Assembly: GCF_964026445.1 (NCBI RefSeq)
Contig: NZ_OZ032150.1
Span: forward strand, 1-64,000
Direction: 5' to 3'
Length of the DNA: 64,000 nt
DNA from: Rickettsia endosymbiont of Cantharis rufa
Lineage (GTDB): Bacteria; Pseudomonadota; Alphaproteobacteria; Rickettsiales; Rickettsiaceae
Positions within the stretch are counted from its first letter, which is position 1; the number at the start of each line of letters is the position of its first letter. Of the stretch, positions 22,641-58,035 are shown piece by piece. The notes below the pieces were generated by a model that was not told where the DNA came from, searched no databases, and was given only the letters and a program-made list of their open reading frames with translations. A program made the position numbers and the translations under genes.

Positions 22641-23930
22641 ATGACAAATACAAAATCCAAAATTAAAACTCCAAGATCGCCATATGTAAAAAAATATAAT
22701 AGTTGGCGAGTAAGAATTTTGTATTCTATTATTATAGGTTATGCAACTTTTTATTTTTGTCGTCAGAATTTTAATATAGCAACTCCTGCTATAAGAGAAT
22801 ATTTTGGGGTTACTAAAACACAAATTGGTTGGATATTAACAGCTTCTTCTATAATGTATGGAGTTAGTAAAGTTTGTAACGGCTTTATTAGTGATAAAGT
22901 CAATGCTCGTATATTTATGGTATTAGGGCTTTTACTTGTCGGAATCATTACTATTCTAATAGGCTTTTCAGATTCTTTATGGCTTATAGGAATTTTATGG
23001 ATAGCTAGCAATTGGTTTCAATCTATGGGATGGCCTCCTGCAACAAAAATGCTTACTCACTGGTTTGCTCCAAAAGAACTCGGAACTAAATGGGCTATGG
23101 GAGCAACTTCTAACCAAATAGGTGGGGCTCTTGCTATGATAAGTTGCGGTTATTTAATCGATAAATTTGATTGGAGAGCTGCTTTTTTCGTTCCCGGTGT
23201 AGTTGCTTGTATAGTATCACTTTTCTTATATAATAGGCTTCGCCATTCTCCAAAAGAAGTAGGCTTATCTACCGTGGAAGAATATAAAGAATATCCCCCT
23301 GAATCCATAGGTGATTATGAAAAGCTACTAACTCCGCAATTACTTAAAATGGTTTTTTGTAACAAGCTAATATGGTATGTCTGTCTGGCTAACATGTTTG
23401 TTTACATAATACGCTCCGGGGTAATTTATTGGGCACCGACATTTTTAAGAGATTTACGTAGTATAAGCCTTGCAAACGCAGGTTTACAAATCGGTTTATA
23501 TGAAATGATAGGCATCCCAGGGGCATTAATAGCAGGTGTTTTATCAGACAAAATATTTCAAGGACGTCGGGGGCCTGTTGCTGCCATATGTATGGTATCG
23601 CTTAGCTTATTGTTAGTCTCGTTTTGGAAAATACCTATCCAAAGTGAATTATTAAGCATAGTAATTCTTTCCTTAATAGGCTTTTTTGTTTCAGGACCAC
23701 AACTCCTTGTAGGTATTGCTGCCGCGGATTTTAGCTCGCGTCAAGCTGTTGGTACTGCTAACGGATTATCAGGATTATTTGGTTATTTAGGAGCAGCCAT
23801 TGCGGGGGTCGGTGTAGGGTGGATTAGCGATAATTACGGTTGGAATGGGGTGTTTGTATTTTTTAGTATTTCCGCTCTTATAGGGGGTGGTTTATTCGCT
23901 TTAACATGGAATTGTTCAGCTAAAAAATAG
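22641..23930 (+). CDS. glpT: Glycerol-3-phosphate transporter, MFS
   Basis: About 429 aa with 12 membrane segments, organophosphate:Pi antiporter family. Typical segments: YATFYFCRQNFNIATPAI, the loop SDKVNARIFM, FQSMGWPPATKMLTHWF and GAALAM-like NQIGGALAMISCG. It imports glycerol-3-phosphate from host cytosol for lipid synthesis. The ATG at 22641 is used; a longer frame from TTG at 22611 lies in the terminator. The stop TAG (23928-23930) is the first codon of a dispersed repeat (23931-24067). Confidence 0.88.
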   Translation: MTNTKSKIKTPRSPYVKKYNSWRVRILYSIIIGYATFYFCRQNFNIATPAIREYFGVTKTQIGWILTASSIMYGVSKVCNGFISDKVNARIFMVLGLLLVGIITILIGFSDSLWLIGILWIASNWFQSMGWPPATKMLTHWFAPKELGTKWAMGATSNQIGGALAMISCGYLIDKFDWRAAFFVPGVVACIVSLFLYNRLRHSPKEVGLSTVEEYKEYPPESIGDYEKLLTPQLLKMVFCNKLIWYVCLANMFVYIIRSGVIYWAPTFLRDLRSISLANAGLQIGLYEMIGIPGALIAGVLSDKIFQGRRGPVAAICMVSLSLLLVSFWKIPIQSELLSIVILSLIGFFVSGPQLLVGIAAADFSSRQAVGTANGLSGLFGYLGAAIAGVGVGWISDNYGWNGVFVFFSISALIGGGLFALTWNCSAKK

Positions 23931-24067
23931 ACTTTCTGCATAAGCCATTTCTAAAGGTAATTTGTACGTCGAGCCTAGACTCGAATCCTCACGTATGTCT
24001 ATATACGCTGCGGTTTGCAGTCAAGTGTTCCCTATTCCTCTTTATAAGATGACTTATGCAGGAAGTT
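23928..24067. repeat. TIR element, copy a, at the glpT stop codon
   Basis: Ends ACTTTCTGCATAAG (23931-23944) and, reversed, AACTTCCTGCATAAG (24053-24067). The core contains the family features TAAAGGTAATTT, CACGTATG...ACGCTG and ATTCCTCTTTATAA. The glpT stop TAG is fused to the left end (TAGACTTTCTGC). Reverse orientation relative to copies b, c and d. Confidence 0.75.
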
Positions 24068-24100
24068 TAATAAATTTAATAATTATATAAAGGTTACAAA

Positions 24101-24523
24101 ATGACAATACAATATACTTTTTCAATGATTAAGCCTGATGCTATTAAAAGGAACAAAATAGGGCAAATCAATACTTATTTAGAAAATGCAGGCTTAAAAA
24201 TAGTGGCCCAGAAAATGAAGCACTTAACTAAATATGAAGCAGAATGTTTTTATGATGAACATAGAGCAAGACCGTTTTTTAATAGCTTAGTTGAATATAT
24301 TACTTCAGGAGCAGTAGTGCTTCAAGTTCTTAAAGGTGCAGATGCTATAACTTTAAATCGTAAAATTATGGGAGCAACTAATCCTGCGGAAGCTGAAGCC
24401 GGAACTATTAGAAAAGATTTCGGTGAATCAATTGAAGCTAATAGTATTCACGGTTCAGATAGTGAAAATAGTGCAAAAAGAGAAATCAAATTCTTCTTTA
24501 ATAAATCTGAAATTATAGAATAA
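24101..24523 (+). CDS. ndk: Nucleoside diphosphate kinase
   Basis: 140 aa. Transfers the gamma-phosphate among NTPs and NDPs through a phospho-His; the active His is in the NSIHGSDS motif, and the ATP-binding [12 protein letters not shown] opens the protein. Full length. mnmG starts 4 nt after its stop, so the genes from ndk to parB are probably one transcript. Confidence 0.96.
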
Positions 24524-24526
24524 TTA

Positions 24527-26395
24527 ATGCTAAAATATGACGTAATAGTTATAGGCGGTGGGCACGCAGGAGCAGAAGCTGCAGCTGCTTCTGCGCGCCT
24601 TGGAGTTTCTACTCTCTTAATTACGTTAAAACCGGAAAATTTAGGTGAAATGTCTTGCAATCCGGCAATTGGTGGAATTGCAAAAGGCACATTAGTTAAA
24701 GAAATTGATGCACTTGATGGATTAATGGGTTATGTAATAGATCAGGCAGGCATACATTATAAAATGCTGAATGAAACTAGGGGACCGGCAGTTTGGGGGC
24801 CTCGTGCTCAAGCTGATCGTAAGCTTTATAAAAAAGCAATGTATCAAATATTAACAAATTATCCTGATCTAGATATATTATACGGAAAAGTAGAAGATAT
24901 AGAAATTAAATCTTCTAAAGTTGAAGCAGTTATTTTAAATGATGGTAGTAAAATTCCTTGTCAAAAAATTATATTGACTACAGGTACTTTTCTATCAGGT
25001 CTTATTCATATCGGCTCAACAAAAATTCCTGCCGGTAGACTAGATGAAGAACCTTCTTACGGATTATCAAATACATTAAAAAAAATAGGATTTAAACTTG
25101 CTCGCTTAAAAACAGGTACGCCGCCACGAATTGATGGGCGTACTATTGATTATAGTAAAACAGCTTTACAGCCAGGCGATAAAACTCCGCGCCCTTTTTC
25201 TGAATTAATAAATATTGTTAACGTTCCTCAAATAAATTGTTTTATCACTAAAACCACTCCTGAAACTCATAATATTATACGTGAAAACATCAATAAATCT
25301 GCGATTTATTCAGGACAAATAGAAGGAATAGGGCCAAGATACTGTCCTTCTGTAGAAGATAAAATAGTTAGATTTAGTACAAAATCAGAACATCGTATAT
25401 TTTTGGAGCCTGAAGGGTTAGACGATTACACCATTTATCCAAACGGTATTTCTACTTCTTTGCCTGAAGAGGTACAGCAAAAATTGATAAAAACAATTCC
25501 GGGATTAGAAAATGCAACGATTTTGCGCCCAGGTTATGCTATAGAATATGATTATGTTGATCCACGTGAAATAAGTATTACGTTAGAGACAAAAAAAATA
25601 ACCGGATTATATTTTGCTGGACAAATTAACGGTACTACAGGATATGAAGAAGCAGCAGGACAAGGTATAGTTGCAGGTATTAATGCTGCTTTGTCAGTAA
25701 AAAATCAACCACCTTTTATATTAACAAGAGCAAATAGTTATATTGGAGTAATGATAGATGATTTAACAATATTTGGCACTACGGAGCCTTATCGTATGTT
25801 TACCTCCCGCTCAGAATATAGATTATCTTTAAGAGCAGATAACGCTGATTTACGTTTAACGGAATTAGGTATAAACATTGGAGTTGTATCAGAAGAACGT
25901 AAAAAAATATTCACAAAGAAATGTGAAGATATAGAAAAAACAAGAAATTTATTAAAAACATTATCTTTAACTACTAGTAAACTTGCTAAAATGGGTATAC
26001 AGGTAGCGCAGGATGGTACATATAAAACAGCATTAGATTTATTTAAAATACCTAATTTTAATGTTGAAGAAGCTATTAAAATTTTCCCTATACTTAAAGA
26101 AGTGCAAAATAATAATATTTTACAATTACTATATATTGAGTCAAAATATGCTTCATATTTAACCAGACAACACGCAGATATTAATTTATTTCAAAGTGAA
26201 GAGGCGCAGTTAATGCCTAAAAATATTGACTATTTTAAAATACCAAGTATATCATTAGAGATACAGGAAAAACTTTCTTTTCATAAACCTGCTACTATTG
26301 GTGTAGCACGTCGAATTCCAGGGATTACACCTGCAGCAATTACTGCTATTATAATTTATTTAAAAACTAGATATAGTGATGGAAGTTCCGCATGA
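24527..26395 (+). CDS. mnmG: tRNA uridine-34 modification enzyme MnmG (GidA)
   Basis: 622-aa FAD protein that, with MnmE, installs carboxymethylaminomethyl at wobble U34 of tRNAs. FAD-binding [17 protein letters not shown] at the N-terminus, signature [12 protein letters not shown], later [16 protein letters not shown] and the [17 protein letters not shown] signature. Full length. Its 3' end overlaps the rsmG start. The mnmG-rsmG-parA-parB order is the classical arrangement near bacterial chromosome origins. Confidence 0.97.
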
Positions 26396-26954
26396 AATAA
26401 TTGAAAAGTTAGAAATTTTTCAAAGGTTAGTTAAAAAATGGAATAAAGCAATCAATCTTGTATCAGATAATAGTGTACATAATTTTTGGCAACGTCATAT
26501 ACTAGACTCATTACAATTAATACAATATATTGATAATAAAGAAATGCACTTGGTTGACATAGGAAGCGGCTGCGGTTTCCCTGGTATAGTATTATCTATT
26601 GCAGGTGTAGCGAAAGTAAGTTTAATAGAAGCTGATTCGCGTAAATGTATATTTTTAGAAAAAGCGTCAAAGATATCAAATAATAACATACAAATAATCA
26701 ATCAAAGAATAGAAAAAGTAGAGATGGATTGTAGTATATTAACTTGTAGAGCTCTCTCTAACTTAAATACAATATTTAATTGTATAAAAAATATTTCAGT
26801 ACAAGAAAAATTTTTGTTATTAAAAGGAAAAAATTATTTAACTGAAATAGTAGAAGCGCAAGAGAAGTGGTTATTTGATTATTTAATACACCAAAGTATT
26901 ACTTTTAAAGAAGGGAAGATTCTAGAAGTTAGTAATTTAACAAAAATTATATGA
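26379..26954 (+). CDS. rsmG: 16S rRNA (guanine-527-N7) methyltransferase RsmG (GidB)
   Basis: 191 aa. Methylates G527 of 16S rRNA. N-terminal [14 protein letters not shown] motif [17 protein letters not shown], then [16 protein letters not shown]. An ATG at 26379 is preferred to the GTG at 26376. Overlaps mnmG by 17 nt and parA by 4 nt (ATGA), so it is translationally coupled on both sides. Confidence 0.95.
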
Positions 26955-27718
26955 AAGTAATTGCTATTGTTAATCAAAAAGGAGGAGTAGCTAAAACTAC
27001 AACTACTGTAAATTTAGCTACAGCCTTTGCTGCTGTAAATAAAAAAATTTTAGTTATAGATCTTGATCCTCAAGGAAATAGTAGCACCGGTTTTGGAATT
27101 AGTCAGCAACAACGCAAAAATACCATATACCAGGTATTAACAAATTTAATAGAATTGAAAGATGCAATAATTTCTACGGATATACCAAATTTAGAAATAA
27201 TTACTTCAAACACTAATCTATCTGCCGCTGAATTAGATTTAACAAAATTAAAGGATCGAGAGTATATTTTAATGAGCCTATTGGAAAAAATAAAAATATT
27301 ATATGATTATATAATTATTGATTGCCCCCCTTCATTAAATTTATTAACGGTAAACGCTTTAGTTGCAAGTGATGAAGTCTTGATCCCAATGCAATGCGAT
27401 TTTTACTCTTTAGAAGGATTAAGTCATTTACTAAAAACAATTGAAATCGTAGAGAAAAAATTAAACCCTAAGATAAAGATTGCAGGTATATTATTTACAA
27501 TGTATGATAAGCGTAATTGTTTAACTGAGCAAGTGGAAGATGATGTTAGGAAATGCTTAGGAGAATTAGTATTTAAAACCGTTATCCCAAGAAATATTAA
27601 ACTATCTGAAGCTCCTTCATATGGAAAACCGGCTATTATATATGATTATAAATGTTCGGGAGCAGTTGCATATATAGAACTTACAAAAGAAATCTTAGAA
27701 AGATATGGCGAAAAATAA
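26951..27718 (+). CDS. parA: Chromosome partition ATPase ParA (Soj)
   Basis: 255 aa, deviant Walker A QKGGVAKTTTTVNLA, Walker B-type VIDLDPQGNSSTGFG and YIIIDCPPSLNLLT. Drives segregation of the origin region with ParB. Overlaps rsmG by 4 nt and parB by 14 nt. I found no perfect parS (TGTTTCACGTGAAACA) in this window. Confidence 0.96.
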   Translation: MKVIAIVNQKGGVAKTTTTVNLATAFAAVNKKILVIDLDPQGNSSTGFGISQQQRKNTIYQVLTNLIELKDAIISTDIPNLEIITSNTNLSAAELDLTKLKDREYILMSLLEKIKILYDYIIIDCPPSLNLLTVNALVASDEVLIPMQCDFYSLEGLSHLLKTIEIVEKKLNPKIKIAGILFTMYDKRNCLTEQVEDDVRKCLGELVFKTVIPRNIKLSEAPSYGKPAIIYDYKCSGAVAYIELTKEILERYGEK

Positions 27719-28565
27719 AGGATTAGGAAGAGGGTTATCTTCATTACTTGGAGAAGAAGTTATTTCTATAGAATCAGAAATAATACAAATAATAAATATT
27801 GATAAAATAAAACCAAATGAGAATCAGCCTAGAAAAAACTTTGAATATGATAAAATAAAAGAATTAGCAGATTCTATACTGAATAATGGTTTATTACAGC
27901 CTATTATTGTTGATAATAATTTCCAAATTATAGCAGGAGAACGGCGTTGGCGTGCATGTAAATTAGCAAAAGTTTTAGAGATACCAGTAATTATAAAAAA
28001 TTTAGATGCTAGAGAGAGTATGGAAATAGCACTAATTGAGAATATACAAAGAACCGACCTAACAGTTATGGAAGAAGCTCGTGGTTTTAAATATCTAGTT
28101 GAAAATTTTAATTATACAGCAGAAAAACTAGCTGAGAGGCTTGGTAAAAGCCGCAGTCATATAGCTAATTTGTTAAGACTTAATAACTTACCGCAGTCTA
28201 TTCAAGATAAAGTAAATGCAAATATACTAAGTATGGGTCAAGCCCGATGTTTAATAAATCATGAGCATGCAGAAATAATAGCTGATCATATTATAAATAA
28301 TGATTTAAATGTGCGTCAAACAGAGGAACTAGTAAGACAATGGTATAAAAATGAGTATACAGAATCTCCTAACAATAATAACAAAGCAGGAAAGCGTTTT
28401 TTAAAGGACAGTACTACCGACAACGATCTAGAATTACTAGTGAAAGTTTTATCAGAAAAGTTTGGTATAAAAATAACAATAGAAAATTATCTATTAGGTG
28501 GAAAATTAATATTTCATTACAAAGGTTTGGAAGAATTAGACTTGATATTATTAAAATTAAATTAA
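27705..28565 (+). CDS. parB: Chromosome partition protein ParB (Spo0J)
   Basis: 286 aa. CTPase/DNA-binding clamp loader at parS. ParB box I: IAGERRWRACKLA; box II: ALIENIQRTDLTVMEEARGF; HTH: TAEKLAERLGKSRSHIANLL; C-terminal dimerisation region present but short. The start MAKNKGLGRGLSSLLGEE carries the ParA-stimulating basic motif LGRGLSSLLG. Confidence 0.96.
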   Translation: MAKNKGLGRGLSSLLGEEVISIESEIIQIINIDKIKPNENQPRKNFEYDKIKELADSILNNGLLQPIIVDNNFQIIAGERRWRACKLAKVLEIPVIIKNLDARESMEIALIENIQRTDLTVMEEARGFKYLVENFNYTAEKLAERLGKSRSHIANLLRLNNLPQSIQDKVNANILSMGQARCLINHEHAEIIADHIINNDLNVRQTEELVRQWYKNEYTESPNNNNKAGKRFLKDSTTDNDLELLVKVLSEKFGIKITIENYLLGGKLIFHYKGLEELDLILLKLN

Positions 28566-28566
28566 A

Positions 28567-28701
28567 ATGCATATGGAAAAATCATCAATAAGCTTGAATG
28601 AAATAAATTTAGTAGATATAAAAGTGCTACAATCCAAATTGATAAAATTAAAGCATGCATACAGCATTTTATTTTTAAGATTTGGCAAATTAAATATCTG
28701 A
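28567..28701 (+). CDS. Small unknown ORF after parB
   Basis: About 44 codons from ATG (MHMEKSSISLNEINLVDIK to LFLRFGKLNI). Unrecognised. A second short frame follows in another phase (RKTIVEITYLILSYL), so this may be a decayed gene of about 70 codons. The rest of 28566-28827 holds nothing else I can name; AATATAAGGAAATAAG precedes ettA as its ribosome site. Confidence 0.3.
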   Translation: MHMEKSSISLNEINLVDIKVLQSKLIKLKHAYSILFLRFGKLNI

Positions 28702-28827
28702 ACGAGAAAAACAATAGTAGAAATTACATATCTGATTCTGAGTTATTTATAGAGCAATAAATTCATACAATATAGTAGTAAATAAATCTATCAGTGCAAA
28801 ATAATAATATAAGGAAATAAGTAATTT

Positions 28828-30495
28828 ATGTCATATCAATACGTTTATGAAATGGTCGGTTTAAGCAAAATTATAAATGGTAAACGAATTTTAAAAGAAA
28901 CAAATTTATCATTTTTACCAAGAGCTAAAATTGGTATAATAGGTCCAAATGGAGCAGGTAAATCGACTTTATTAAAAATAATAGCAGGTATTGATAAAGA
29001 GTTTGAAGGTAAAGCAACAGCTAAAATTGGTACAAAAATAGGATATTTACCTCAAGAACCATATCTTGACGCTAGTAAAAATGTTTTTGACATTATCATA
29101 GAAGGTCTTCATGAAAAGAAAAAACTTATTGATGAATTTAATGATATAAGTAACAAATTTGCTGCTGAAATTACTGATGAAGAAATGCAGAATCTTTATG
29201 ATAAGCAGGCAGAATTGCAAGAAAAAATAGACAATTGTGATGGATGGAATCTAGAACGTGAAATAGAAATTGCAATGCTTGCTTTGCGTTGTCCGCCAAA
29301 AGAAGCGGATATTACAAAAATTTCCGGTGGAGAAAAAAGAAGAGTAGCCTTATGTAAGCTTCTTTTAGAAAAGCCTAATATGTTATTACTTGATGAACCG
29401 ACAAATCATTTGGATGCAGAATCAGTTTCTTGGCTTGAGAATTGCCTGAGGAACTACAAAGGTACGGTAATAGTTATTACCCATGATCGTTATTTTTTAG
29501 ATAATGTTACGGAATGGATATTAGAGATTGATCGAGGGAATTGTATCCCGTGGGAATCAAATTACAGCTCTTGGCTTGAGAAAAAACAAGCAAAATTAGC
29601 TTTAGAGGGTAAAGAGGAAGATGATAGAATAAAGCAACTAAACCGTGAACTTGAATGGATTCGTCAAACTCCAAAAGCTAGACAGTCAAAAAATAAAGCA
29701 CGTATTACAGCGTATCAAGAATTATTAAATAAACAACAAGAACAAAAAAGCGATCCTACTCAAATAATTGTACCTAATGGGCCACGCTTAGGTGATCTTG
29801 TTATTGAAGCAGAACATATAGCTAAAAAATTTAACAATAAAATATTATTATCAGATTTTAGTTTTAAAGTTCCACGTGGAGCTATTGTAGGAATTATTGG
29901 ACCAAATGGAGCGGGTAAGTCTACCTTGTTTAATATTATTACAGGTAAAATAACACTAGATAGCGGTTCTATTAAAATTGGTCAAACTGTGAAATTAGGT
30001 TATGTTGATCAATCACGGGATCATTTAGATAATAATAAAACTATATGGGAAGAAATTTCAGAAGGTTTAGATGAATTGCAGCTTGGTAATAGAATAGTTA
30101 AAAGTAGAGCCTATTGCGCTGCTTTTAATTTTAGAGGAGGTGATCAACAAAAGAAAGTTGGACAACTTTCTGGTGGAGAGCGTAATAGAGTACATTTAGC
30201 AAAGTTATTAAAAGAAGGTGCTAATGTAATACTTCTTGATGAGCCCTCAAATGATCTTGATTTAGATACTTTAAGAGCGTTAGAGGGTGCAATTTTAGAT
30301 TTTGCTGGTTGTGTTTTAGTAATTAGTCATGATCGTTGGTTTTTAGATAGAATAGCTACACACATTATCGCTTATGATAAAGAAGGTGATGCTACTTGGT
30401 TTGAAGGGAATTATCAAGATTATCTTGACTATATGTTAAACGAGAAAGGCAAGAATATTTTAAATCCAAAATATAAACATAAAAAACTAATATAA
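28828..30495 (+). CDS. ettA: ABC-F ATPase EttA, translational throttle
   Basis: 555 aa with two ABC domains and no membrane part. Walker A GPNGAGKSTLLK and GPNGAGKSTLFN; signatures SGGEKRRVALC and SGGERNRVHLA; the inter-domain P-site tRNA interaction region WIRQTPKARQSKNKARI. EttA binds the ribosome E site and gates the first elongation step according to the ADP/ATP ratio, which is relevant for a cell that imports ATP. Second Walker B is ILLDEPSNDLD. Confidence 0.94.
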   Translation: MSYQYVYEMVGLSKIINGKRILKETNLSFLPRAKIGIIGPNGAGKSTLLKIIAGIDKEFEGKATAKIGTKIGYLPQEPYLDASKNVFDIIIEGLHEKKKLIDEFNDISNKFAAEITDEEMQNLYDKQAELQEKIDNCDGWNLEREIEIAMLALRCPPKEADITKISGGEKRRVALCKLLLEKPNMLLLDEPTNHLDAESVSWLENCLRNYKGTVIVITHDRYFLDNVTEWILEIDRGNCIPWESNYSSWLEKKQAKLALEGKEEDDRIKQLNRELEWIRQTPKARQSKNKARITAYQELLNKQQEQKSDPTQIIVPNGPRLGDLVIEAEHIAKKFNNKILLSDFSFKVPRGAIVGIIGPNGAGKSTLFNIITGKITLDSGSIKIGQTVKLGYVDQSRDHLDNNKTIWEEISEGLDELQLGNRIVKSRAYCAAFNFRGGDQQKKVGQLSGGERNRVHLAKLLKEGANVILLDEPSNDLDLDTLRALEGAILDFAGCVLVISHDRWFLDRIATHIIAYDKEGDATWFEGNYQDYLDYMLNEKGKNILNPKYKHKKLI

Positions 30496-30497
30496 AT

Positions 30498-30815: not shown

Positions 30816-30849
30816 TCCGCGCCCCGCTTAATAATTAAATTTAAAAATT

Positions 30850-38490: not shown

Positions 38491-38638
38491 TTTTTAGTTA
38501 AAAAGAGCAAAAATAGATTAATTTTATTTTCCCTCATACAGTCTAAAACTTTATTTCAAACTCTTTTTGCCACATATTTGTTATTAAATCAAGAAAAATT
38601 TTAAATTCGTTATATTGATTTACAAGAAAGTATTTATT

Positions 38639-39620
38639 AGACCTCTTGCATAATGTAATTAATAAAGAGGAATTATAAGGATACACGGAATGCAGCACCA
38701 CAGCGTACACACTAGTACGTGAAGATGCGAGTACCGGACAACGTATAAATTACCCTTAGAAGCAAGTTATTTTAGGTCGCGCCCCCGTATTGCAGCTTAG
38801 CATGAATAGTCTATAATCCTCAAACAGTAATAAGAGAGAATTATAGTTAAGGAGTTATGGCAAGAATAGATGTTAAGTGTAGATCAAGAATAGATGTTAA
38901 GTGTAGATATTATAACGACACAGAAAAAGTAGTAAAGGCGGGATATTCAATTTCAAAACAACAGAGATATCAATGCAAGCAGTGTAATCGATATTTTTAA
39001 CTGTAATATATTAATAATGCCTCTAAGCCTGGAGTCAAGGCTCAGATAGTAGATATGTCAATCAATGGCTCTGGAGTTAGGGATACAGTAAGAGTATTAA
39101 AAGTGGGTATCAATACGGTTATCCGTGTTTTAAAAAAATCTAGCGTTAAAAAAGATAAATCATTCTATCAATACGATAGAAGTAATTATTGCTCCTGAAA
39201 TAGATGAACAATGGTCTTATGTACAGAATAAATCCAAACAAAGATGGCTTTGATATTCTTTGGATAAGATTTTGTTAAAAGTAGTTGCTTATACTTTTGG
39301 TACAAGATGTGATAGCACATCAGAATCATTACTGAAAAAAACTGGAGGATTTTAAGGTTACTTTTTACTTTACAGATGGATAGGGAAGTTATGCTAGGTT
39401 ATTAGATCCCAAAAAACACATTGTTAGTAAAAAATATACTCAACGGATAGAACGGGGTAACTTAAATCTTAGAACAAGATGCAAAAGACTGACACGTAAA
39501 ACAATTTGTTTTTCCAAGTCATTGGATATTCATGATAAAGTCATCGGAACTCTTATTGAACGTATAGCATTTAATACCCACATCTGCAAAATGGAGGTGC
39601 GACCGTTATGCAATAGGTCT
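38639..39620. repeat. TIR element, copy b, carrying IS1 copy D
   Basis: Outer ends AGACCTCTTGCATAA (38639-38653) and TTATGCAATAGGTCT (39606-39620) are inverted repeats, 14 of 15 matching. Element sequence 38639-38774 contains AATAAAGAGGAATT, GCGTACACACTAGTACGTGA and AAATTACCCTTAGAAGCAAG; then IS1 (38775-39604) interrupts it just before the right end. It lies 48 bp past the MFS gene stop. Confidence 0.8.
38775..39604 (+). mobile_element. IS1-family element, copy D, dead
   Basis: 830 bp, ends GGTCGCGCCCCCGTATTGC and GGAGGTGCGACC. Flanks GTTATTTTA and GTTATGCAA agree at five of nine positions, a possible decayed target duplication. It has the 24-bp duplication, the TAG in the InsB DGW codon and many other stops. 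Inserted inside the TIR element. Confidence 0.82.
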
Positions 39621-39668
39621 ATTCTTGATTTCCATTCGCTCCACTTACATGTACCTCATACGGAGGTA

Positions 39669-40931
39669 CTACAGTACCTTTTTATCTAAACTTCTATTTT
39701 TGTAAAAAGCTAAGGCAATCAATGCAAAAATACAGCTTAATATGATGTAATAAACTGCCGAGGTTACATGACCTGTTCTTTGTACTAAATATTCAAAAAC
39801 AAGAGGCGTAGTACCGCCAAAAATACTTGTAGCAGTGTTATATGAAATAGAAAGAGCGGTATTACGTATATTTGTAGGATAAAATTCTGCTTGCAATGCC
39901 GGTTCAGGACCGATATAGCTAGCGGCAAGTATAGCCAGTATAAATTGTGAGATAATTACGTACGTAAAGTCACCGTCCTCAAAATTATTAAGTAAAAACG
40001 GTGTCGTTACAATAATTATTATAAGATTAATTACAAAAATTTTCCTGCGACCTATAATATCGGATATATAACCGCTTAATAAAGTTACGACTATCATAAT
40101 CACGTAACATACGCTAGCGAGGCTATTTACCTCATTTTCAGTAAAGTTGCGGCTGATTTTTAAAAACGATATCAAGTAAATTGTAGTTAGGTAAAATATT
40201 ATCGAACCGGGAGCATTAATAAAAATCGAAATTAATATATCAAACCAATGATTGGTAATAACTTTTTCTAACGGTGACTGTAAAATCTTTTTCTGATCCC
40301 TTAAATTTTTAAAATTCGGTGTTTCTTGGGCATGTTTTTTAATATAAAATGCTGCAAAAAGAATAAAAAAACCAAGTAAAAAAGGTATTCTCCAGCCAAA
40401 ATTATCAAACTGCTCGGCAGTTAAAATATTTTTGACGATATAAGAAACAAAAGAACCAAGAAGCAAACCGGAGCATATACTAGACATTGAGATACTACCG
40501 GTGAAGCCTCGGTGTTTAGGGCTAGTATGCTCAATAACAAAGGAAATAGAACCGGTCAAAGCCCCTCCCATCGATAATCCTTGCAGAATTCTAACCCCAA
40601 TCATTAATATGGTAGCAGTGATACCGATAGTATGATAGGTCGGTAATATTCCGATTAATACGGTTGGAGCAGACATACAAAATAATGCGCTAGTTAAGGC
40701 TACTTTTCGTCCAAATCTATCGCCTATAACACCAAAAAATATCCCCCCCAAAGGTCTTGCTAAATAGCCTATAGCAAAAACTAAAAAAGCTTGCAGTAAA
40801 GAGGTATTAGCATCATCATTCGGGAAAAATTTAGCTCCTATTATTGGTGCAAAATAACTGAATAATACATAATCGTACCATTCAAAAGTATTGGCGATAC
40901 CGCTTGAAAATACTAGTTTACTTCGATTCAT
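39669..40931 (-). CDS. MFS transporter, ProP-like
   Basis: 420 aa, 12 membrane segments, metabolite:H+ symporter group (proline/betaine or dicarboxylate type). N-terminal [17 protein letters not shown], family loop [29 protein letters not shown]. In Rickettsia many ProP-like paralogues exist, with unknown substrates. Overlaps the SAM transporter gene by 14 nt, so they share a transcript. Confidence 0.85.
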
Positions 40932-45350: not shown

Positions 45351-45366
45351 TTTTTTATGGATTAAT

Positions 45367-45500
45367 ATACTGCATAACCTATTGTTATAAAGAGGAATTT
45401 GAGAGATACGCGTAGCCTCAACCCACGGCGTACATACTAGTTACGTGAGGATTTGAGTACCGAATTGAAAATTACCTTTAGAAATAGATTATGCAGTCTA
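45367..45500. repeat. TIR element, copy c, at the queF stop
   Basis: Ends ACTGCATAACCTAT (left) and, reversed, ACTGCATAATCTAT (right). Core TAAAGAGGAATTTGAGAGATA, CGGCGTACATACTAG, ACGTGAGGAT and AAATTACCTTTAGAA as in copies a, b and d. The queF stop codon TAG is the terminal TAG of this element (45498-45500, reversed). Confidence 0.75.
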
Positions 45501-46319
45501 TTGTCTAATAAGTCGTTTATCGCTAGGTAAAGTGTAATTTTGATCTAGAGAGCGATAGGGGCAAATATCAATCCCACCACGCCTAGTATATACTATATAA
45601 ATAGAAAGGAATTCGGGATTTATAGCATTTTTAATGTCTGTAAAAATACGCTCGGCACACTGTTCTGCAAATTCATTAAAATTTCTAAAAGATATTAGAT
45701 ATTTCAAGAAAGAATCATGTTTTAACTTCTTTCCTTTATATTTTATAACGATTGTACCCCAATCCGGTTGACCGGTTACTAAGCAATTAGATTTTAGTAA
45801 ATTAGAATTAATCCCTTCTTCTACCAAAATATTCTCATACTCAATTAAACTATTATCTGGTGGACCGTAATTATTGCATTCTATATCTAAATCATCAATA
45901 TTTTTACCGCTTGGAACACTAAACTCTATTTTTGTATTTATTGGTAATATTTTGCCTAATATTTTAGATTGTAGGGCACTACTTAAATCTTGTAAAATTA
46001 TTCTTCCCAATTCTTCCATAGAATCAACTACAAAATTATTGAAAGAATTCAAGTATAATTTAAGAGATTTTGATTCTACAATATTGGGAGAAGTTGCAGG
46101 TATATAAAAAGTGCCTACCCCAACACATGGCTTGCCTTTATTATTAAGCCAAGACAATTCATATGCATTCCAAATATCTACACCGTAAAATGGTAGATTA
46201 TTACCGTTTATTCCGAGTTCGTTTCGATTATTTATACGTGGAATTTTAAATAACAAAGTTGCATCATAACTATCTCTATAAGTACTTTTTTTACCAAGTA
46301 AAGAAGTAGATAAAGGCAT
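45498..46319 (-). CDS. queF: 7-cyano-7-deazaguanine reductase QueF
   Basis: 273 aa, the long (YqcD-like/T-fold) NADPH-dependent nitrile reductase making preQ1 for queuosine tRNA modification. Catalytic Cys in [14 protein letters not shown]; QueF motif [21 protein letters not shown]-fold regions [15 protein letters not shown] and HYxxF-like [16 protein letters not shown]. Ends LIRQ with a TAG provided by the TIR element. Adjacent to ctrA, 17 nt away. Confidence 0.93.
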
Positions 46320-49969: not shown

Positions 49970-50070
49970 TTGTTTACAAATTGACATCATTTTATAACTG
50001 ATTAGCACTATTGTAAGAGTTAATAAAATTAATGCTCTTCATGAGAATAAAAGAATTCAATCACTATTAT

Positions 50071-50115
50071 AATCAAGGCTTAGAGCAATCTTATGCCTTG
50101 ATTATTCTACCTTTT
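50071..50115 (+). terminator. Rho-independent terminator after the porin
   Basis: AATCAAGGC (50071-50079) pairs with GCCTTGATT (50095-50103); a T run CTTTTTAAT follows at 50110. Located about 100 nt after the porin stop. Confidence 0.7.
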
Positions 50116-50390
50116 TAATCGAACTATCAATAAACTTTATACAATCCTTGTTTACCCTTTTGTTTAACCTCTGAACCATTCTATAGTCTGAGTTTTCTAA
50201 TTCCCGTCAAATTATTACCTAACTCCGTACTTTATTTACTTAAATAGCATATTTCAGAAAGCTAACCAGGATGAATTTAAAGTTGAGCTCACACAGCGTA
50301 AATATACATAAGTACTAGTGAACCATGAAAAATTCGCGATATATACCTCTTGATTAAATAAAATTATATATTTTATATTTTTTATTGCTA
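50116..50390. other. Intergenic stretch without genes
   Basis: No coding sequence seen. Around 50271-50340, GATGAATTTAAAGTTG, CACACAGCGTAAAT and AAGTACTAGTGAACC partly match 52019-52075 and the core of the TIR elements, suggesting an old diverged repeat. Confidence 0.4.
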
Positions 50391-50406
50391 GATGTTGACT
50401 TTCTTT

Positions 50407-50447
50407 GATTACCATATATTGTGATGCAACCATAATATATGGTAATC
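50407..50447. promoter_or_regulatory. Perfect 13-bp inverted repeat, possible operator or hairpin
   Basis: GATTACCATATAT (50407-50419) and ATATATGGTAATC (50435-50447) with a 15-nt spacer, 43 nt upstream of the ATG of the following degenerate gene. TTGACT at 50396 precedes it. Could be a regulator site or leader hairpin. Confidence 0.45.
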
Positions 50448-50490
50448 ATGTGATATATAATTTTTATTATTTTAAAGCAGGAGTAACACT

Positions 50491-51175
50491 ATGAATCATG
50501 CTAAACTTACAACTAAGGATATTCCTTTGTAAATGGATTAGAAGCGGTTACAAGATATGCAACCGCTCCTAAATTATTATTTAAAGATACATATAATTTG
50601 TTTCTAGTTTCAACCTAAAAAATATCTACAATATTACATGCTTTAAATATTCAGAAAGTCTATACAAAAGATGGCGATTTTGAGGCAGCATTGAAGTTTT
50701 TTCATATGAAACAAGATAATTCTCTAAAGATAAAAATAGATGTAACTCATAACATAGAGAGGCCAACATCAGAGGACAGTGAAAATTTTTTTCTCCCATA
50801 TTAAATGTATTTAAAAACATGATGGAAACAAGTAATATTATAGATAAATATATTACAGCAACCCCTCATTTAATGAGTATAAGTTTTACCTTAAAAAAAA
50901 TTTCAAGTCCCGACCATGTTATAAGCAAATTTGATGCAATAAGGGTGCCAGCACTTATGACTGCTGCTACCGCTATCGAAAAATCTTTAATAGATACAAT
51001 TAAAGAAGATTACTCTACTATAATTCAATTTTTTAAGAATAGTAATAAGTCCTTAATTGGCGTTTATAATCTTTTCGGTAATAATAATGAAGATTTTGCA
51101 TATTATCCGTTAGAGGAATATTATCAGGAGGATCAATTTGATGTTATAGGAGTGGAAGATAGTAACATCTATTAG
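50491..51175 (+). pseudogene. Unrecognised gene, 5' part decayed
   Basis: ATG at 50491 after AAAGCAGGAGTAAC starts MNHAKLTTKDIPL and stops at once; other frames continue NGLEAVTRYATAPKLLFKDT, ILHALNIQKVYTKDGDFEAA and DNSLKIKIDVTHNIERPTSE. The last 118 codons (50819-51175) are open: METSNIIDKYITATPHLMS to EDSNIY. No family recognised. The stop TAG at 51173 is formed with the IS1 end; before insertion TAA would have stopped it at the same codon, so IS1 did not shorten it. Confidence 0.6.
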
Positions 51176-52004
51176 GTCGCACCTCCATTTTACAGATGTG
51201 GATATTAAATGCTATACGTTCAATAAGAGTTCCGATGACTTTATCATGAATATCCAATGACTTGGAAAAACAAATTGTTTTACGTGTCAGTCTTTTGCAT
51301 CTTGTTCTAAGATTTAAGTTACCCCGTTCTATCCGTTGAGTATATTTTTTACTAACAATGTGTTTTTTGGGATCTAATAACCTAGCATAACTTCCCTATC
51401 CATCTGTAAAGTAAAAAGTAACCTTAAAATCCTCCAGTTTTTTTCAGTAATGATTCTGATGTGCTATCACATCTTGTACCAAAAGTATAAGCAACTACTT
51501 TTAACAAAATCTTATCCAAAGAATATCAAAGCCATCTTTGTTTGGATTTATTCTGTACATAAGACCATTGTTCATCTATTTCAGGAGCAATAATTACTTC
51601 TATCGTATTGATAGAATGATTTATCTTTTTTAACGCTAGATTTTTTTAAAACACGGATAACCGTATTGATACCCACTTTTAATACTCTTACTGTATCCCT
51701 AACTCCAGAGCCATTGATTGACATATCTACTATCTGAGCCTTGACTCCAGGCTTAGAGGCATTATTAATATATTACAGTTAAAAATATCGATTACACTGC
51801 TTGCATTGATATCTCTGTTGTTTTGAAATTGAATATCCCGCCTTTACTACTTTTTCTGTGTCGTTACAATATCTACACTTAACATCTATTCTTGATCTAC
51901 ATTTAACATATATTCTTGCCATAACTCCTTAACTATAATTCTCTCTTATTACTGTTTGAGGATTATAGACTATTCATGCTAAGCTGCAATACGGGGGCAC
52001 GGCT
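51175..52004 (-). mobile_element. IS1-family element, copy E, dead, with 9-bp target duplication
   Basis: 830 bp flanked by CATCTATTA (51166-51174 and 52005-52013), an exact duplication proving a transposition event here. It carries the same 24-bp internal duplication and InsB nonsense change as copies A, C and D, so a transposase supplied elsewhere must have moved it. Confidence 0.88.
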
Positions 52005-52124
52005 CATCTATTAATTTGAACTAGGCAAGATGAATTTAAAAGCCTATAAAAACTTTTAGTACTAGGTTCCGTGAAGATTTCTAATTAATTTGCTATTTTG
52101 AGGTGTTTTTTAGCGAAAATTATT

Positions 52125-52807
52125 TGTAGAAATCAAGATCTAATCCTACAGACACTATAAAAACTATATCTGAATGTCTGATAAGTTATGACTGTCAGAT
52201 GAGTATTCAAGATATAAGATTTCGTTATTCTTTTCAACATCTAACTTTTTACTATCCATAAAAGTCTGCATAGGCGTTTTACCATAGCGATATTTACCGG
52301 AATGTGATCTTTCGTTATTGTAATGCTCTAACCAAATATTCGGTAAGAACAATACCATCCTGAGCCATTTTTACTTCTAATGCTTTAAGTCTTTTATTGA
52401 TATTATTTAAATCATTACGTAGCCAAATTGATCTAACCCCCCAGGTGATACAAGAATACCAGTCTTTTTAAGCTCATTTGATACTCGCATCTGACCATAA
52501 GCTGGGTATTCTACCGCCATATCTAATACTGCTCTCTCTACCGCAGGATCAACTCTATTTGCTATAATTAGCTTCTTCCGGCTAATCTCATATAACGCCT
52601 CTTCTCCCCCAGTTTCATATAGCTCTTTGAACCTATAATAACTGTCCCTGCTGTATCCCATAGCTTTACACGCTGACGATATACTTCCAAGACTCCTAGC
52701 TAATCCTATTTTTGGCTTTATTATTTTTTGATTTAGATTCATTTCTAATCCTCTATTTAATACTTATCTTATTTTACTAAATGTAAGATTGAATCTCAGC
52801 TATTGCA
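52125..52807 (-). pseudogene. IS481 element with internal deletion
   Basis: Both termini are present (TGTAGAAATCAAGATC and, reversed, TGCAATAGCTGAGATTC), but the middle of the catalytic domain is missing: WLEHYNNERSHSG is joined to the beginning of the second ORF at 52340. The HTH part is also 9 bp shorter (LLG lost: PKIGLARS). The G6 frameshift is there. It sits between two oppositely oriented stretches resembling TAGAAATCTTCACAGAACCT. Confidence 0.85.
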
Positions 52808-52812
52808 AATTG

Positions 52813-52862
52813 ATAAGATTTTTGAAAAGAATAATTATTCATATTTTAAAAAAATCTTATAA
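52813..52862. repeat. Short hairpin repeat, copy 3 of 3
   Basis: ATAAGATTTTTG ... AAAAAAATCTTAT with inner GAATAATTATTCATATTTT. Downstream homology to copy 2 continues (GTAGCAAAAAATAA to ACAGAACCT, 52867-52917). It lies 3' of parC. Confidence 0.6.
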
Positions 52863-53003
52863 TTTGTAGCAAAAAATAACCAAAATTAAATCTTTTTAGA
52901 AATCTTCACAGAACCTAAACCGGTACAAGCGAATTTGTAAATAATTCGCTTGTATCAAATTATATAAAATATGCTGGGTTTTTTTACACTCAATCTTTAA
53001 CTA

Positions 53004-55217
53004 TTATGATGAAAATCTATTATTTTTAGGGAAGCCCATAGGAGGTAATTTACCGGTACTACCTCTTTTCCCTAAAAATGCAATAATATTTTTTTCGAGC
53101 TTTGCTTTTCCATTGTTATTCCAGCCTAAACCGTCTTCTTTATTAAATATTTTAATATCTAGAAGTTTTGCATTCTTAAATTTTTGCAGCGTTACACCTT
53201 GCCCTTTTTTCATTTCAGGTATTTCATCTATATTAAATACCAGTAATTTACGGCTTTCACCCATGCAAGCAATACTATTCCCGTTTACAGGCAAACAAGC
53301 TATACATACATGACCATCCGGTACGTTCATAATTTGCTTTCCTGTCTTTGTTTGAGCTATTACTTCACTTGAATTAACTAAAAATCCCTTACCTATACTA
53401 CTTGCAAGCAATAAAAGCTGTTCGGGCTTATAGACTAAAATATTTGTAATATCGTTATTGCCTATATCCACAAGTAGCTTTATAGATTCGCCGCTGCCTT
53501 TACCTTTAGAAATATTATCAGCAAGTAGAGTAAAAAATCTCCCTTCTGAACTAACTATTAATATCTTATCAGTCGTGTAAGCTTCTAAAATAAATTTTTC
53601 TGCGTCACCTTCTTTATATTTAATAATCGATAAATCGGTGTTATGACCTTTTAACGAACGTACCCACCCCATTTTTGAGCAGATAATTGTAATCGGATCC
53701 TTAGTAATAAACGCCGTTATATCAACTACTTGATTCGTAAGTGTTACTTCTTCAAAGCTCGTACGTCTTGCTCCTATTACCGTATTTAATCCGAATCTCG
53801 TTTGTACTGCTTTTATTTCCTTTTTTATTACTTCCCATAATCCTTTTGGATTATTTAAAATCTCTTCTAATATGGCTTGTTGTTTTTGTAAATTACCATA
53901 TTCATTAATAATTTCCTGCTCTTCAAGTTTACGAAGTGAGCGGAGACGGGTATTTAATATTGCTTCTACCTGTATTTCGGTTAGTTTAAACCGCTTCATC
54001 ATTATCGCTTTCGGCTCATCTTCTTCACGAATAATCTTAATGATCCCATCAAGATTTAGATAAGCTATTCTAAGACCTTCTAAAATTTCTAAACGATGTT
54101 TGATTTTGTTTAAAAGATAAGTTGACCTACGAGTAACAATATTTTGTCTATGAGCTAAAAACTCTTGTAAAACCTCTAAAATATTCATTACTCTCGGCAC
54201 GTTATTACTGCCAATCACATTCATATTTAGCTGAATGCGACTTTCTAAATTCGTTAGCTTGAATAGAGATTCCATAACTATCTGCGGATTACAGCTACGA
54301 TCCCTTGGCTCTATAATCAACCTAATAATATCGGTTGATTCATCCCTAATATTGCCAACAAGCGGGATTTTTTTATCCTTTAGCAATATTGCTACTTGTT
54401 CTATGAGTTTTGATTTTTGAACTTGATAAGGTATTTCGGTTACGACTATCTGATATGTACCATAACTTAGTTCCTCTTTTTCCCATCTGCTTCTTACTCT
54501 AAGACTACCGCGTCCCGTACTATAAGCACTGCTAATAACTTCGGCTTTATCAATAATTATACCGCCGGTTGGGAAATCGGGGCCTTTAATAAAATTCATT
54601 ACATTGTTAATTTTAGCTTTCGGGTGGTCGATTAAATGCACCAAAGCATCACATAACTCATGTAAATTATGCGGCGGTATATTGGTTGCCATACCGACTG
54701 CTATTCCTTCCGAGCCATTAGCTAGTAAGTTTGGAAAACTTGCCGGCATTATTACCGGTTCTAAATCGGAATCATCATAAGTAGGACGAAAATCTACTGT
54801 ATCTTTGTCGATATCCACCATCAATAACATACATATTTCCGTCATACGTGACTCAGTATAACGCATAGCCGCCGCATTATCACCGTCTATAGACCCGAAA
54901 TTGCCCTGTCCATCAATTAAAGGATAGCGAAGCGAAAAGTACTGAGCAAGGCGTACCAAGGTATCATACACTGCCACATCGCCGTGCGGGTGATACTTAC
55001 CTATTACGTCACCGACTACTCTTGCGCATTTCTTATAGCCGGAATTCGGCTCAAGCCTTAGCTGTAGCATTGCGTATAATAACCTACGATGTACAGGCTT
55101 AAGTCCGTCACGTACGTCAGGAAGCGAACGTGACATAATCGTTGACAACGCATAAGCAAGATAACGCTCTGATAACGCATTAGCAAAGTCAATATTTTCT
55201 ATTTTAGCTTCCTTCAT
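53004..55217 (-). CDS. parC: DNA topoisomerase IV subunit A
   Basis: 737 aa. Decatenates daughter chromosomes with ParE. DNA-binding/cleavage domain: [33 protein letters not shown], catalytic Tyr in [10 protein letters not shown]; GyrA-like C-terminal propeller with short or degenerate blades and no GyrA box, supporting ParC rather than GyrA. At the position of E. coli Ser80 (after HPHGD) this protein has Val; effect unknown. Full length; the start [20 protein letters not shown] is typical. Confidence 0.94.
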
Positions 55218-55265
55218 AAGTATTTAATTTTTTTATTATGACTCCTAGTATCATTTCTCTATTCT

Positions 55266-55296
55266 TGTCATCCCGTGAATAAATCACGGTATGACA
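55266..55296. terminator. Hairpin repeat between the SPOR gene and parC
   Basis: TGTCATCCCGTGA ... TCACGGTATGACA, a compact hairpin from the palindromic-repeat class, 8 nt past the stop of the − strand SPOR gene. No strong T run follows, so its terminator role is inferred. Confidence 0.5.
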
Positions 55297-55304
55297 CTAA
55301 AGTG

Positions 55305-55979
55305 TTACTTCAACACACAACTTTGCTTATTATATGCCAGCTTTTTACAAACTGTTTTAGCTTGACTAAGACTACCATAATTACCGGCTAAGATTAAATA
55401 GAAAAATTTGCCGTCGTCATATTTAACTTTTTTGGTTGTGATAACAACATTTTTAAGAATTTTTGGGAACTTCTTTCTTATTCTTTCTCCTTCCTTTATT
55501 GCTTCTGCTTCAGATTTTACCGAACCTAGTTGTACTTTATAACTTTCATTATTTTTACAATTTTTAGCATTACTAACCCTATCCTTACTTCCTTTTTCAA
55601 GCTTTATTATATTTAAATCCGTTTCATTTTTGGCGTTATTACTCGACTCTATTAATGCAATAAGTTTAGATATCTCATCAAAAGATTCATCACTTTGACT
55701 CTGGTTACGAGAGTCTATATTCATAGGTTTCTCAGGGTCAGGAAGAAATTTTACGGTTTTAATATTTGTATCTTTAGCAATAAGATTTTCATATATCGTA
55801 CTATGTACTGCTGCTATTTGGTTATTCTCTACTATAGACGGTTTTATTTTTGTAGGCAGCTCATCAGGATAAATAGTAATTACCGGCTTGCTATTCTGAT
55901 AATATTGATAAGCAAAATAAATACCAGATATACATACCAAGGATACTAGACATATTTTAACAAAAATATTATTGATCAT
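55305..55979 (-). CDS. SPOR-domain cell-division protein
   Basis: About 224 aa from [16 protein letters not shown]. One N-terminal membrane helix, a periplasmic low-complexity stretch, and a C-terminal SPOR domain ([20 protein letters not shown], then [20 protein letters not shown]) that binds denuded peptidoglycan at the septum. An in-frame extension to 56033 ([16 protein letters not shown]) is translated palindromic repeat and unlikely to be real. It lies downstream of argS. Confidence 0.85.
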
Positions 55980-56002
55980 ATATAAAAATTCAGGTAATTC
56001 TA

Positions 56003-56111
56003 TGTCATTCCCGCGAAAGCAGGAATCCACCATAAAGCGAGATTTTAGATCTAAAAATTTGTTGTATTTATATCTTCTAATTAGTGGATTCCCACTTTCG
56101 CGGGAATGGCA
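56003..56111. repeat. Palindromic repeat upstream of the SPOR gene
   Basis: Arms TGTCATTCCCGCGAAAGCAG (56003) and, inverted, CACTTTCGCGGGAATGGCA (to 56111), 15 nt past the argS stop (reverse strand). Produces the spurious N-terminal [11 protein letters not shown] in the SPOR frame. Confidence 0.82.
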
Positions 56112-56125
56112 TAATCAGTATACAA

Positions 56126-57856
56126 TTACATTCTATTCATTGGTTCTACACCTATCACTTCAAGGCCACTAGCTATAACTTTTTGTATAGCTTTAGCAAG
56201 AGCAAGACGAGCGGTAGTTAATTCTTTATTGTCTTCAATTACAAATCTGTAATCGCTATTTTCTTTACCGAAATTCCATATAGCATGAAATTTTGAAGCT
56301 AAGTTTATTAAATAAAATGCGATGCGATGCGGTTCAAAATATTTTGCAGATGCTTCTAATGTTTTTGTCCAGCTAGCCAAAAGTTTTATGATCTCAATTT
56401 CTTCTTCTGATGATAATAAAGATAAATCATACTTGCCGGCTTCAAAGTCATTATAAGATTCCGGCATTAATTCCACGGCTTTTGATAAAATTGATATTGC
56501 TCTAACATGTCCATATTGTACATAGAAGATAGGATTTTCTCTTGATTGTTCCTTCACTTTTACTAAATCAAAATCAAGCGGTTTATCATTTTGCCTTGTT
56601 AACATGATAAATCTTATGATATCTTTCCCCACCTCATGATTTACATCTTGTACACTAGCAAAACTCCCAAGACGCTTTGACATTTTAACCGATACACCGT
56701 TTTCAACAAAATTGACCAATTGACAAATTTTAACGTCTACTTTAACCTGCTCCTTACCCAAAGCTCTGACAATTGCCTCAATTCTTTTAACATATCCGCT
56801 ATGATCGGCACCAAGTACGTAGATTAAATGATTAGCCCCTCTATCTATTTTATCCTTAGCATATGCAAGGTCGGAAGCAAAATACGACCAACTTCCATCA
56901 GCTTTTTCTATAGGACGATCTTGACTATCACCATAGTTGGTAGATTTAAACAATTTTTGAACTCTGTTATCCCATTCCTCGTGAACTTTACCTTTAGGAG
57001 CAGGTAACGTACCTTCATAAATTAGCCCCATACAGTCCAGTAATCTAACTGTTTTCTTTATTTCGCCTTTATCATGCAATGATTGTTCAGAGAAAAATAT
57101 ATCATGTTTAATACCTAAATCTGCCAAATCTTTTCTATTTAAATCAAGCATCTTTTCTACAGCAAAATTTTTGACTATTTTAAACCTTTCTGCTTCACCC
57201 ATCGTTAATAATTTATTACCGTATTCTTTCGCTAAAATTTGTCCAACCGGAATTAAATATTCTCCCGGATATAAACCGACAGGGATAATAATTTTTTCGC
57301 CTAAAGCCTCTTTATAACGTAGTAATACCGTACTAACTAAATCATTTATTTGCGAGCCGGCATCATTAACATAATATTCTTTTGCAACAGTATAGCCTAC
57401 CTTTTGCAAAATTCTTGCTAGCACATCGCCATATACCGCACCCCTAGCATGCCCTATATGCATTGGACCCGTGGGATTTGCCGAAACATACTCGATATTA
57501 ATATTTTTATTCTTATCTATATCAATTTCAAAAAATTTTTCTTCGTGCTGTAGAATATTCTTAATTGCTATCTGCCAACTTTCGGCTTTTATAGTAAAAT
57601 TAATAAAACCAGGTCCCGCTATTTCTATACTTGCAATATAAGGTAATGTTATAAGTATTTCTTTAAACTTTAAAGCCACTTCCCTAGGAGAAGTATTTTC
57701 TTTAGAAGCAATGATCATTGCAATATTACTTGATAAATCTCCGTTAAAATTATCTTTTGGAGTTTCAATAGTAGCATTCTTTGCTATTTCTTGATTGTTA
57801 TATAATTGCTGACTTGCTGCAATTATATCTTGTTTTAATTGATTAAATATATTCAT
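56126..57856 (-). CDS. argS: Arginyl-tRNA synthetase
   Basis: 576 aa. Class I synthetase: HIGH motif in SANPTGPMHIGHARGAV, KMSK motif in ENGVSVKMSKRLG, N-terminal Add-1 domain and the C-terminal DALR domain ending LASGLEVIGVEPMNRM. Full length. A TIR element lies just upstream (57892-58035). Confidence 0.97.
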   Translation of the reverse strand: MNIFNQLKQDIIAASQQLYNNQEIAKNATIETPKDNFNGDLSSNIAMIIASKENTSPREVALKFKEILITLPYIASIEIAGPGFINFTIKAESWQIAIKNILQHEEKFFEIDIDKNKNINIEYVSANPTGPMHIGHARGAVYGDVLARILQKVGYTVAKEYYVNDAGSQINDLVSTVLLRYKEALGEKIIIPVGLYPGEYLIPVGQILAKEYGNKLLTMGEAERFKIVKNFAVEKMLDLNRKDLADLGIKHDIFFSEQSLHDKGEIKKTVRLLDCMGLIYEGTLPAPKGKVHEEWDNRVQKLFKSTNYGDSQDRPIEKADGSWSYFASDLAYAKDKIDRGANHLIYVLGADHSGYVKRIEAIVRALGKEQVKVDVKICQLVNFVENGVSVKMSKRLGSFASVQDVNHEVGKDIIRFIMLTRQNDKPLDFDLVKVKEQSRENPIFYVQYGHVRAISILSKAVELMPESYNDFEAGKYDLSLLSSEEEIEIIKLLASWTKTLEASAKYFEPHRIAFYLINLASKFHAIWNFGKENSDYRFVIEDNKELTTARLALAKAIQKVIASGLEVIGVEPMNRM

Positions 57857-57891
57857 GACTAAGTTTTAAATATTGTTAAAATTCAGAGAAT

Positions 57892-58035
57892 AGACCTCTT
57901 ACAAACGCTCGCTAATACGGAGGAATTTGTAGGAGACACGGAACGCAGTACCGCGGCGTACACTCTAGTACGTGAGGATGTAAGTACCGGTTCGACGCAC
58001 AAATTACCCTTAGAAGCAAGTTATGTAAGAAGTCG
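57892..58035. repeat. TIR element, copy d, overlapping the dgt 3' end
   Basis: Ends AGACCTCTTACA (57892) and, reversed, CGACTTCTTACA (to 58035). Core AATACGGAGGAATTTG, GCGTACACTCTAGTACGTGA and CAAATTACCCTTAGAAGCAAG, like copy b. The last eight or nine codons and stop of dgt lie inside its right end. Confidence 0.78.

Follow-up and report, generated by a model that had tools for sequence, protein, structure and literature searches.

The repeats of the window and their family

The window analysed here is a stretch of 64,000 nucleotides that opens contig NZ_OZ032150.1 (assembly GCF_964026445.1) of the Rickettsia endosymbiont of Cantharis rufa, and it contains four related repeats with inverted ends. 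By sequence similarity these repeats are identified as copies of the Rickettsia palindromic element RPE1 (NCBIfam TIGR01045), a known element, occupying the following positions:

23928..24069, minus strand: RPE1 copy a (TIGR01045, DNA profile, repeat ends)
38638..38774, plus strand: RPE1 copy b, left and central part (TIGR01045, DNA profile)
38775..39604, plus strand: broken IS1-family insertion within copy b (flanking duplication, PF03400, PF03811)
39605..39621, plus strand: RPE1 copy b, right end past the insert (end motif at 39606-39621)
about 45366..45500, plus strand: RPE1 copy c, with degenerate arms (DNA similarity)
57891..58036, plus strand: RPE1 copy d (TIGR01045, about 75 bits)

The glpT-like gene of the major facilitator superfamily (MFS; 22611-23930, plus strand) takes its stop codon from the terminal TAG of copy a at 23928-23930, and queF (45498-46319, minus strand) ends on the terminal TAG of copy c, the complement of 45498-45500. 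The dgt gene (58010-59167, minus strand) reads eight codons into copy d and stops at an in-element TAA (58010-58012), with the insertion point lying seven codons ahead of the native stop seen in relatives whose site is empty. An earlier inspection of these letters, referred to as the sequence-only reading, had proposed that glpT and queF take their TAG stops from the first bases of the element and that dgt ends on element-encoded residues, and both proposals are confirmed; it had also placed copy b 48 bp past an MFS gene (39669-40931, minus strand), and the measured distance from the right end of copy b to the stop of this gene is 47 bp. The insert that splits copy b is flanked by GTTATTTTA and GTTATGCAA, which are identical at six of nine positions and are read as a decayed 9-bp duplication. 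PF03400 matches one stop-free piece of this insert with 87 bits and PF03811 matches another with 18.8 bits, below its cut-off, the IS1-family sequence being disrupted by frame shifts and stops.

A translated search with the TIGR01045 model, applied with its 30-bit cut-off, gave 50.7 bits for copy a, 38.4 bits for copy b, and about 75 bits (75.1-75.4) for copy d; 5 of 14 control genomes gave matches, none of them above the cut-off. Copy c, whose arms are degenerate, has no entry in the TIGR01045 translated search and is tied to RPE1 by DNA, with an E value of 4.4e-9 to copy a and 78 bits with a profile that includes copy c itself. Across the window's own genome (G000, 1,463,984 bp in one contig), 33 of the 46 translated TIGR01045 matches exceed the cut-off, and a DNA search with copy a returned 37 matches in 1.46 Mb, confirming far beyond chance the kinship, inverted ends, and shared core that the sequence-only reading had described. 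A profile search of the kind for which that reading called, covering the window and 38 further stretches of G000, yielded 41 copies above 50 bits. Only matches above this score were kept, reducing 44 to 41 in G000 and 55 to 52 in the relative G006, with 38 in the relative G005, and the resulting set of 131 copies includes some partial ones. For the genus-wide comparison, up to 23 Rickettsia genomes were used, two of them from the window's own species (relatives carry labels such as G004 and G022), and all 23 searched carry RPE1.

The window copies share the ends TAGAC...GTCTA together with common core motifs, and measure 142-146 bp for copies a, b (excluding the insert and its duplication), and d, and approximately 135 bp for copy c. 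Hairpin folding is seen for copies a, c, and d. Passages of two published accounts describe Rickettsia palindromic elements (RPEs) as palindromes of 105-146 bp that lie between genes or form in-frame fusions with them (PMC2229807, PMC10969869), and the window copies are palindromes within this size range with terminal inverted repeats. Sequence, length of about 146 bp, palindromic ends, in-frame copies within open reading frames (ORFs), and genus-wide occurrence all agree between RPE1 and the window repeats, and nothing separates them. The founding papers on RPE1 are said to be those of Ogata et al. from 2000 and 2002, cited here via later papers. At 62140-62185 of the window, a weak 17-bit match to the RPE1 core appears to be a decayed remnant.

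Empty sites, insertion anatomy and protein tails

Of the 23 genomes, only the two of the window's own species have RPE1 at the glpT site; 19 have an empty site, which reads TAC in G011 versus TAA in the others, and two (G017 and G020) are too diverged to read. The queF gene is present in 22 genomes (a 27-bp match in G017 being due to chance), of which one carries RPE1 and 21, including the other own-species genome, lack it at the stop. The dgt site is filled in 9 of 23 genomes and empty in 14, and the copy b site is without RPE1 in both records compared (G004 and L009). Beyond the window, RPE1 lies at the end of a TfoX-like gene in 2 of the 12 genomes possessing this gene, at rluC in 14 of 23, and at holB in 2 of 22 (G014 having pieces of holB only). 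Relatives with an empty site were thus found for each window copy, and by this comparison of sequences RPE1 is judged to be mobile. The sequence-only reading had likewise taken the repeat for a mobile element and had named a lack of empty sites at orthologous loci as the outcome that would speak against it, which is clearly not what the relatives show. On a three-gene tree the dgt copy occurs in three sub-clades and is missing from others nested among these (support for the placement of G006 is low, at 0.78), a pattern that calls for precise loss, recombination, or repeated insertion.

The junctions at five filled/empty sites fit an element running TAGAC...GTCTA with a 1-bp target duplication, the duplicated base being C at rluC, A at glpT, T at dgt, T at holB, and A at TfoX (with one substitution). 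At rluC, for example, the filled site TTTTAC[TAGAC..GTCTA]CTGATAAG stands against the empty site TTTTACTGATAAG. Target duplication is a hallmark of miniature inverted-repeat transposable elements (MITEs); the single base duplicated here is shorter than usual for them, and the queF junction is unreadable. The MITEs RUP and ERIC, as portrayed in part of PMC2229807, resemble RPE1 in their terminal inverted repeats, their length of about 100-200 bp, and their stem-loop transcripts, but show target duplications and TA ends, whereas RPE1 duplicates 1 bp of any base; for RPEs, the same text gives the target duplication as '?'. The reviews, in the portions consulted, place their emphasis on in-frame insertions, and the literature passages searched mention neither stop supply nor the 1-bp duplication nor an in-place inversion for RPE1.

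In G000, a 16-mer end pattern allowing up to three mismatches gave 84 matches, compared with 27 for a reversed control pattern. No parent transposon with RPE1 ends was identified, four further end-pattern places having been noted, of which two were inspected, with one ORF scanned (a helicase) and no transposase search in the rest. At 378737 of G000 (L348 2738-2850), an exact end match belongs to what is, by eye, a decayed RPE1 upstream of a DEAD-box helicase gene, and at 421054 (L349, about 5040-5071) an apparent right-half RPE1 remnant comes after the stop codon of a gene that by eye resembles a chaperonin gene.

The consequences for the encoded proteins fall at their C-termini. At glpT, queF, and holB, the C-terminus is kept and the native stop is swapped for the element TAG at the same codon. 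In dgt, the seven native codons are exchanged for eight element codons followed by TAA, and in G004, G009, and G018 the reading frame meets the tip TAG instead and the protein ends immediately. At rluC, three to six native codons, depending on the relative compared, are exchanged for four element codons, and in the TfoX-like gene five native codons are exchanged for five. Within G000, the terminal TAG also provides the stop of holB-like, holC-like, and RickCE-like ORFs, the TAA of TGCATAA/TACATAA that of TfoX-like and rluC-like genes, and FtsJ-like, fabH-like, LptF/G-like, and MgtE-like genes end 0-8 bp ahead of the element. The RickCE-like ORF encodes 672 aa (PF22189, PF22179; L096 2-2020), and its TAG stop forms the first bases of a sense-oriented RPE1 (2018-2164). 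The rluC-like gene (G000:1077041-1078057, minus strand) carries, besides its RPE1 end, an RPE2 (TIGR03774, 67 bits) in frame mid-gene, a stretch matched across only in G000 and G015 of the 23 genomes.

As for the remainder of the window, Rfam at its gathering thresholds reports two tRNAs. The segment from about 39600 to 59750 is inverted relative to G015, G004, and G007, with the glpT side colinear and the breakpoints lying somewhere in 32-39.6 kb and just beyond 59.7 kb.

Stop supply and position relative to gene ends

RPE1 is probably a non-autonomous element that supplies stop codons mainly as a by-product of its terminal sequence and of purifying selection, rather than by targeting them, and that is later reworked by strand-switching. 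An element of about 146 bp (TAGAC...GTCTA) would be inserted with a 1-bp target duplication by some enzymatic activity. One frame in one orientation of RPE1 is open, so a copy can survive within a gene as an extra peptide, as is known and was also observed here. In the other frames, the inverted ends bring stops, TAG at the tip and TAA in TGCATAA/TACATAA, and outside ORFs contact with genes would therefore be expected mostly at dispensable last codons or at the stop itself, where the element would become the gene's new stop codon. After insertion, strand-switching during replication may homogenise the arms and sometimes invert the interior.

Positions and in-frame counts were evaluated in G000, G006, and G005, with genes called from codon usage and the element masked. 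In-frame copies within ORFs number 15 of 41 in G000, 19 of 52 in G006, and 16 of 38 in G005, giving 50 of 131 in total; TilS of G000, with an RPE1 domain scoring 66 bits, is one example. Only one antisense copy above 50 bits was called in a gene interior (G006, 846355), and it actually sits in the interval that separates the 3' end of one gene from the predicted start of the ORF that follows. For the noncoding copies, the null model gave the element an equal chance of landing at any point of the intergenic gap that holds it, extended by the final T bases of every gene whose 3' end borders that gap, and abutment was scored when a stop lay within the element or at most 8 bp away. The value T=21 (seven codons) is the largest tolerance observed in the empty-site comparisons. 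Under this setting, 21 of 81 pooled noncoding copies abut a 3' end against 18.2 expected (P=0.19), and 20 of 74 against 16.4 when orthologous sites are collapsed (P=0.11). Neither G006 (5 of 33 against 6.1 expected, P=0.86) nor G005 (5 of 22 against 5.6, P=0.79) shows an excess. The pooled expectation at ten codons (T=30) is 20.1 (P=0.44), and at T=60 the P value is 0.94. In the control for 5' ends, 2 cases were observed in G000, where 5.2 were expected, and 5 in G006, where the expectation was 7.5. Because of this position test, stop supply is regarded as mainly a by-product and not the outcome of targeting.

An alternative is active targeting, in which RPE1 would seek out stop codons or gene 3' ends, for instance by preferring TAA as its target or by a coupling to transcription ends, and several results weigh in its favour and against the by-product reading. 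In G000, abutment to a 3' end is seen for 11 of the 26 noncoding copies, more than the 6.5 expected when seven codons are tolerated (P=0.014), the 7.3 expected with ten (P=0.04), and the 3.8 expected with none (P=1e-5). The pooled data likewise depart from expectation when little tolerance is granted, with 12.0 expected and P=5e-5 at none, P=0.013 at three codons, and P=0.07 at five, or P=2e-5, 0.006, and 0.04, respectively, after collapsing orthologous sites. Insertion fell directly ahead of the native stop at glpT, queF, and holB, three of the six dissected sites, and the gene calls, based on codon usage only, are crude. The pooled P value varies with T, and the answer therefore depends on the number of codons that are dispensable. 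Against targeting stand the lack of excess in G006 and G005 at seven codons, the 50 copies within ORFs, and the targets in dgt, rluC, and TfoX, which lie 3-7 codons upstream of the stop and share no common motif by eye. Active targeting is accordingly considered improbable. As a general rule, stop-codon targeting is not supported by the gap-conditional null across the three genomes, the modest excess in G000 being unreplicated.

A consistent gene-end preference across genomes is not supported by these sequence comparisons. The sequence-only reading had suggested that the element either targets stop codons or is tolerated only there: the former finds an excess in G000 alone, and the in-frame copies do not support the latter as a rule. 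Its suggestion to measure stop distance against random placement gives a divided answer, with independence of gene ends holding in G006 and G005, against the suggested association, and not in G000. Repetitive extragenic palindromic (REP) sequences with GTAG ends, as covered in the text of PMC3733652 consulted, are like RPE1 small palindromes by ORF 3' ends whose termini often give a TAG stop; they differ in their size of 20-40 bp and their end sequence, and are reported near ORF 3' ends, a position at which RPE1 is not consistently in excess here.

That RPE1 is retained at gene ends because its RNA hairpin works as a terminator, an RNase site, or a stabiliser of the 3' end is highly improbable. 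In favour of this, four folded sequences (copies a and c on one strand, d on both) beat all 200 shuffles (z -3.5 to -5.5), and in three genomes the two arms of a copy resemble each other more than they resemble the arms of other copies (P 0.003 or less). Against it, the sites are often empty in relatives, 3'-end enrichment is lacking in G006 and G005, templated arm copying or subfamilies would produce the arm similarity equally well, and copy a, the sole copy scanned for a terminator-like hairpin plus T run, has no T run behind its hairpin, the one match of that scan lying inside glpT.

In-place inversion and arm copying

Among the loci compared, seventeen sites have both flanks common to several genomes, three of these only in the two own-species genomes, and at 3 of the 17 the element lies in opposite orientation between the same flanks. 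The first is rluC, where G006 and G022 differ from 12 other genomes; the second pairs G000:822081 with G006:1270554, and the third G005:39090 with G006:463426. In the G006:463426 copy, two identical 37-nt arms, each of 3' type, enclose a core that runs in the opposite direction to that of the G005 copy. Perfect arms of at least 26 nt (26-37 nt), scored by exact arm matching, occur in 6 of 52 G006 copies but in none of the 41 in G000 or the 38 in G005 (Fisher P=0.003, post hoc); a separate arm-type classifier missed the G006:463426 copy. The six are located as follows:

G006, loci L205, L208, L218, L223, L228 and L231: RPE1 copies with perfect arms (exact arm matching)

PMC8604942 describes template switching between inverted repeats as producing arm homogenisation and spacer inversion, sometimes recurrently, in the short inverted repeats of yeast, whereas here it is proposed for a mobile element. 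By this analogy, we infer that arm homogenisation and inversion of RPE1 may come from polymerase template switching, with G006 perhaps representing a lineage with weak suppression of the process. RPE1 could then be a self-editing palindrome in which, after insertion with a 1-bp duplication, strand-switching repeatedly copies arm onto arm and flips the interior, with a burst in G006; this reading is tentative and is given slightly less than an even chance.

Separate insertions at the same spot could also produce copies of opposite orientation, and this explanation, though rather unlikely, accounts for part of the data. The ends at 822081/1270554 and 39090/463426 are common variants or differ between genomes, and the flipped rluC copies show no higher identity to their counterparts than to the best unrelated copies, an undecisive comparison. 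However, the rluC copies of 14 genomes sit between the same flanks, and the end variant GAYRTCTTACA is confined to this site, being carried by just two of the 131 copies counted in G000, G005, and G006, which favours a single insertion followed by flips. In addition, the 463426 copy has one arm that still runs the same way as in its counterpart, while its core is reversed.

A further RPE1 copy, with the end variant GACTTSTTGTA, lies about 1.36 kb past the rluC copy in six relatives (L268, L269, L271, L272, L275, and L278, at about 3360), and offers another shared site suited to orientation comparison.

A textbook example of selfish DNA turned into protein sequence, RPE1 is seen in the comparison of up to 23 genomes to edit proteins in another manner as well, by rewriting C-terminal tails and donating stop codons. 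Its gene-end bias is now quantified and, across three genomes, is not clearly above what tolerance predicts. In-place inversion and arm homogenisation are possibly the new part and worth specialist attention. If true, self-editing would keep the ends complementary and could change which gene product receives an RPE1 peptide and which merely a stop codon, and if inversion and arm copying hold, the persistence of the palindromic form would become directly testable.

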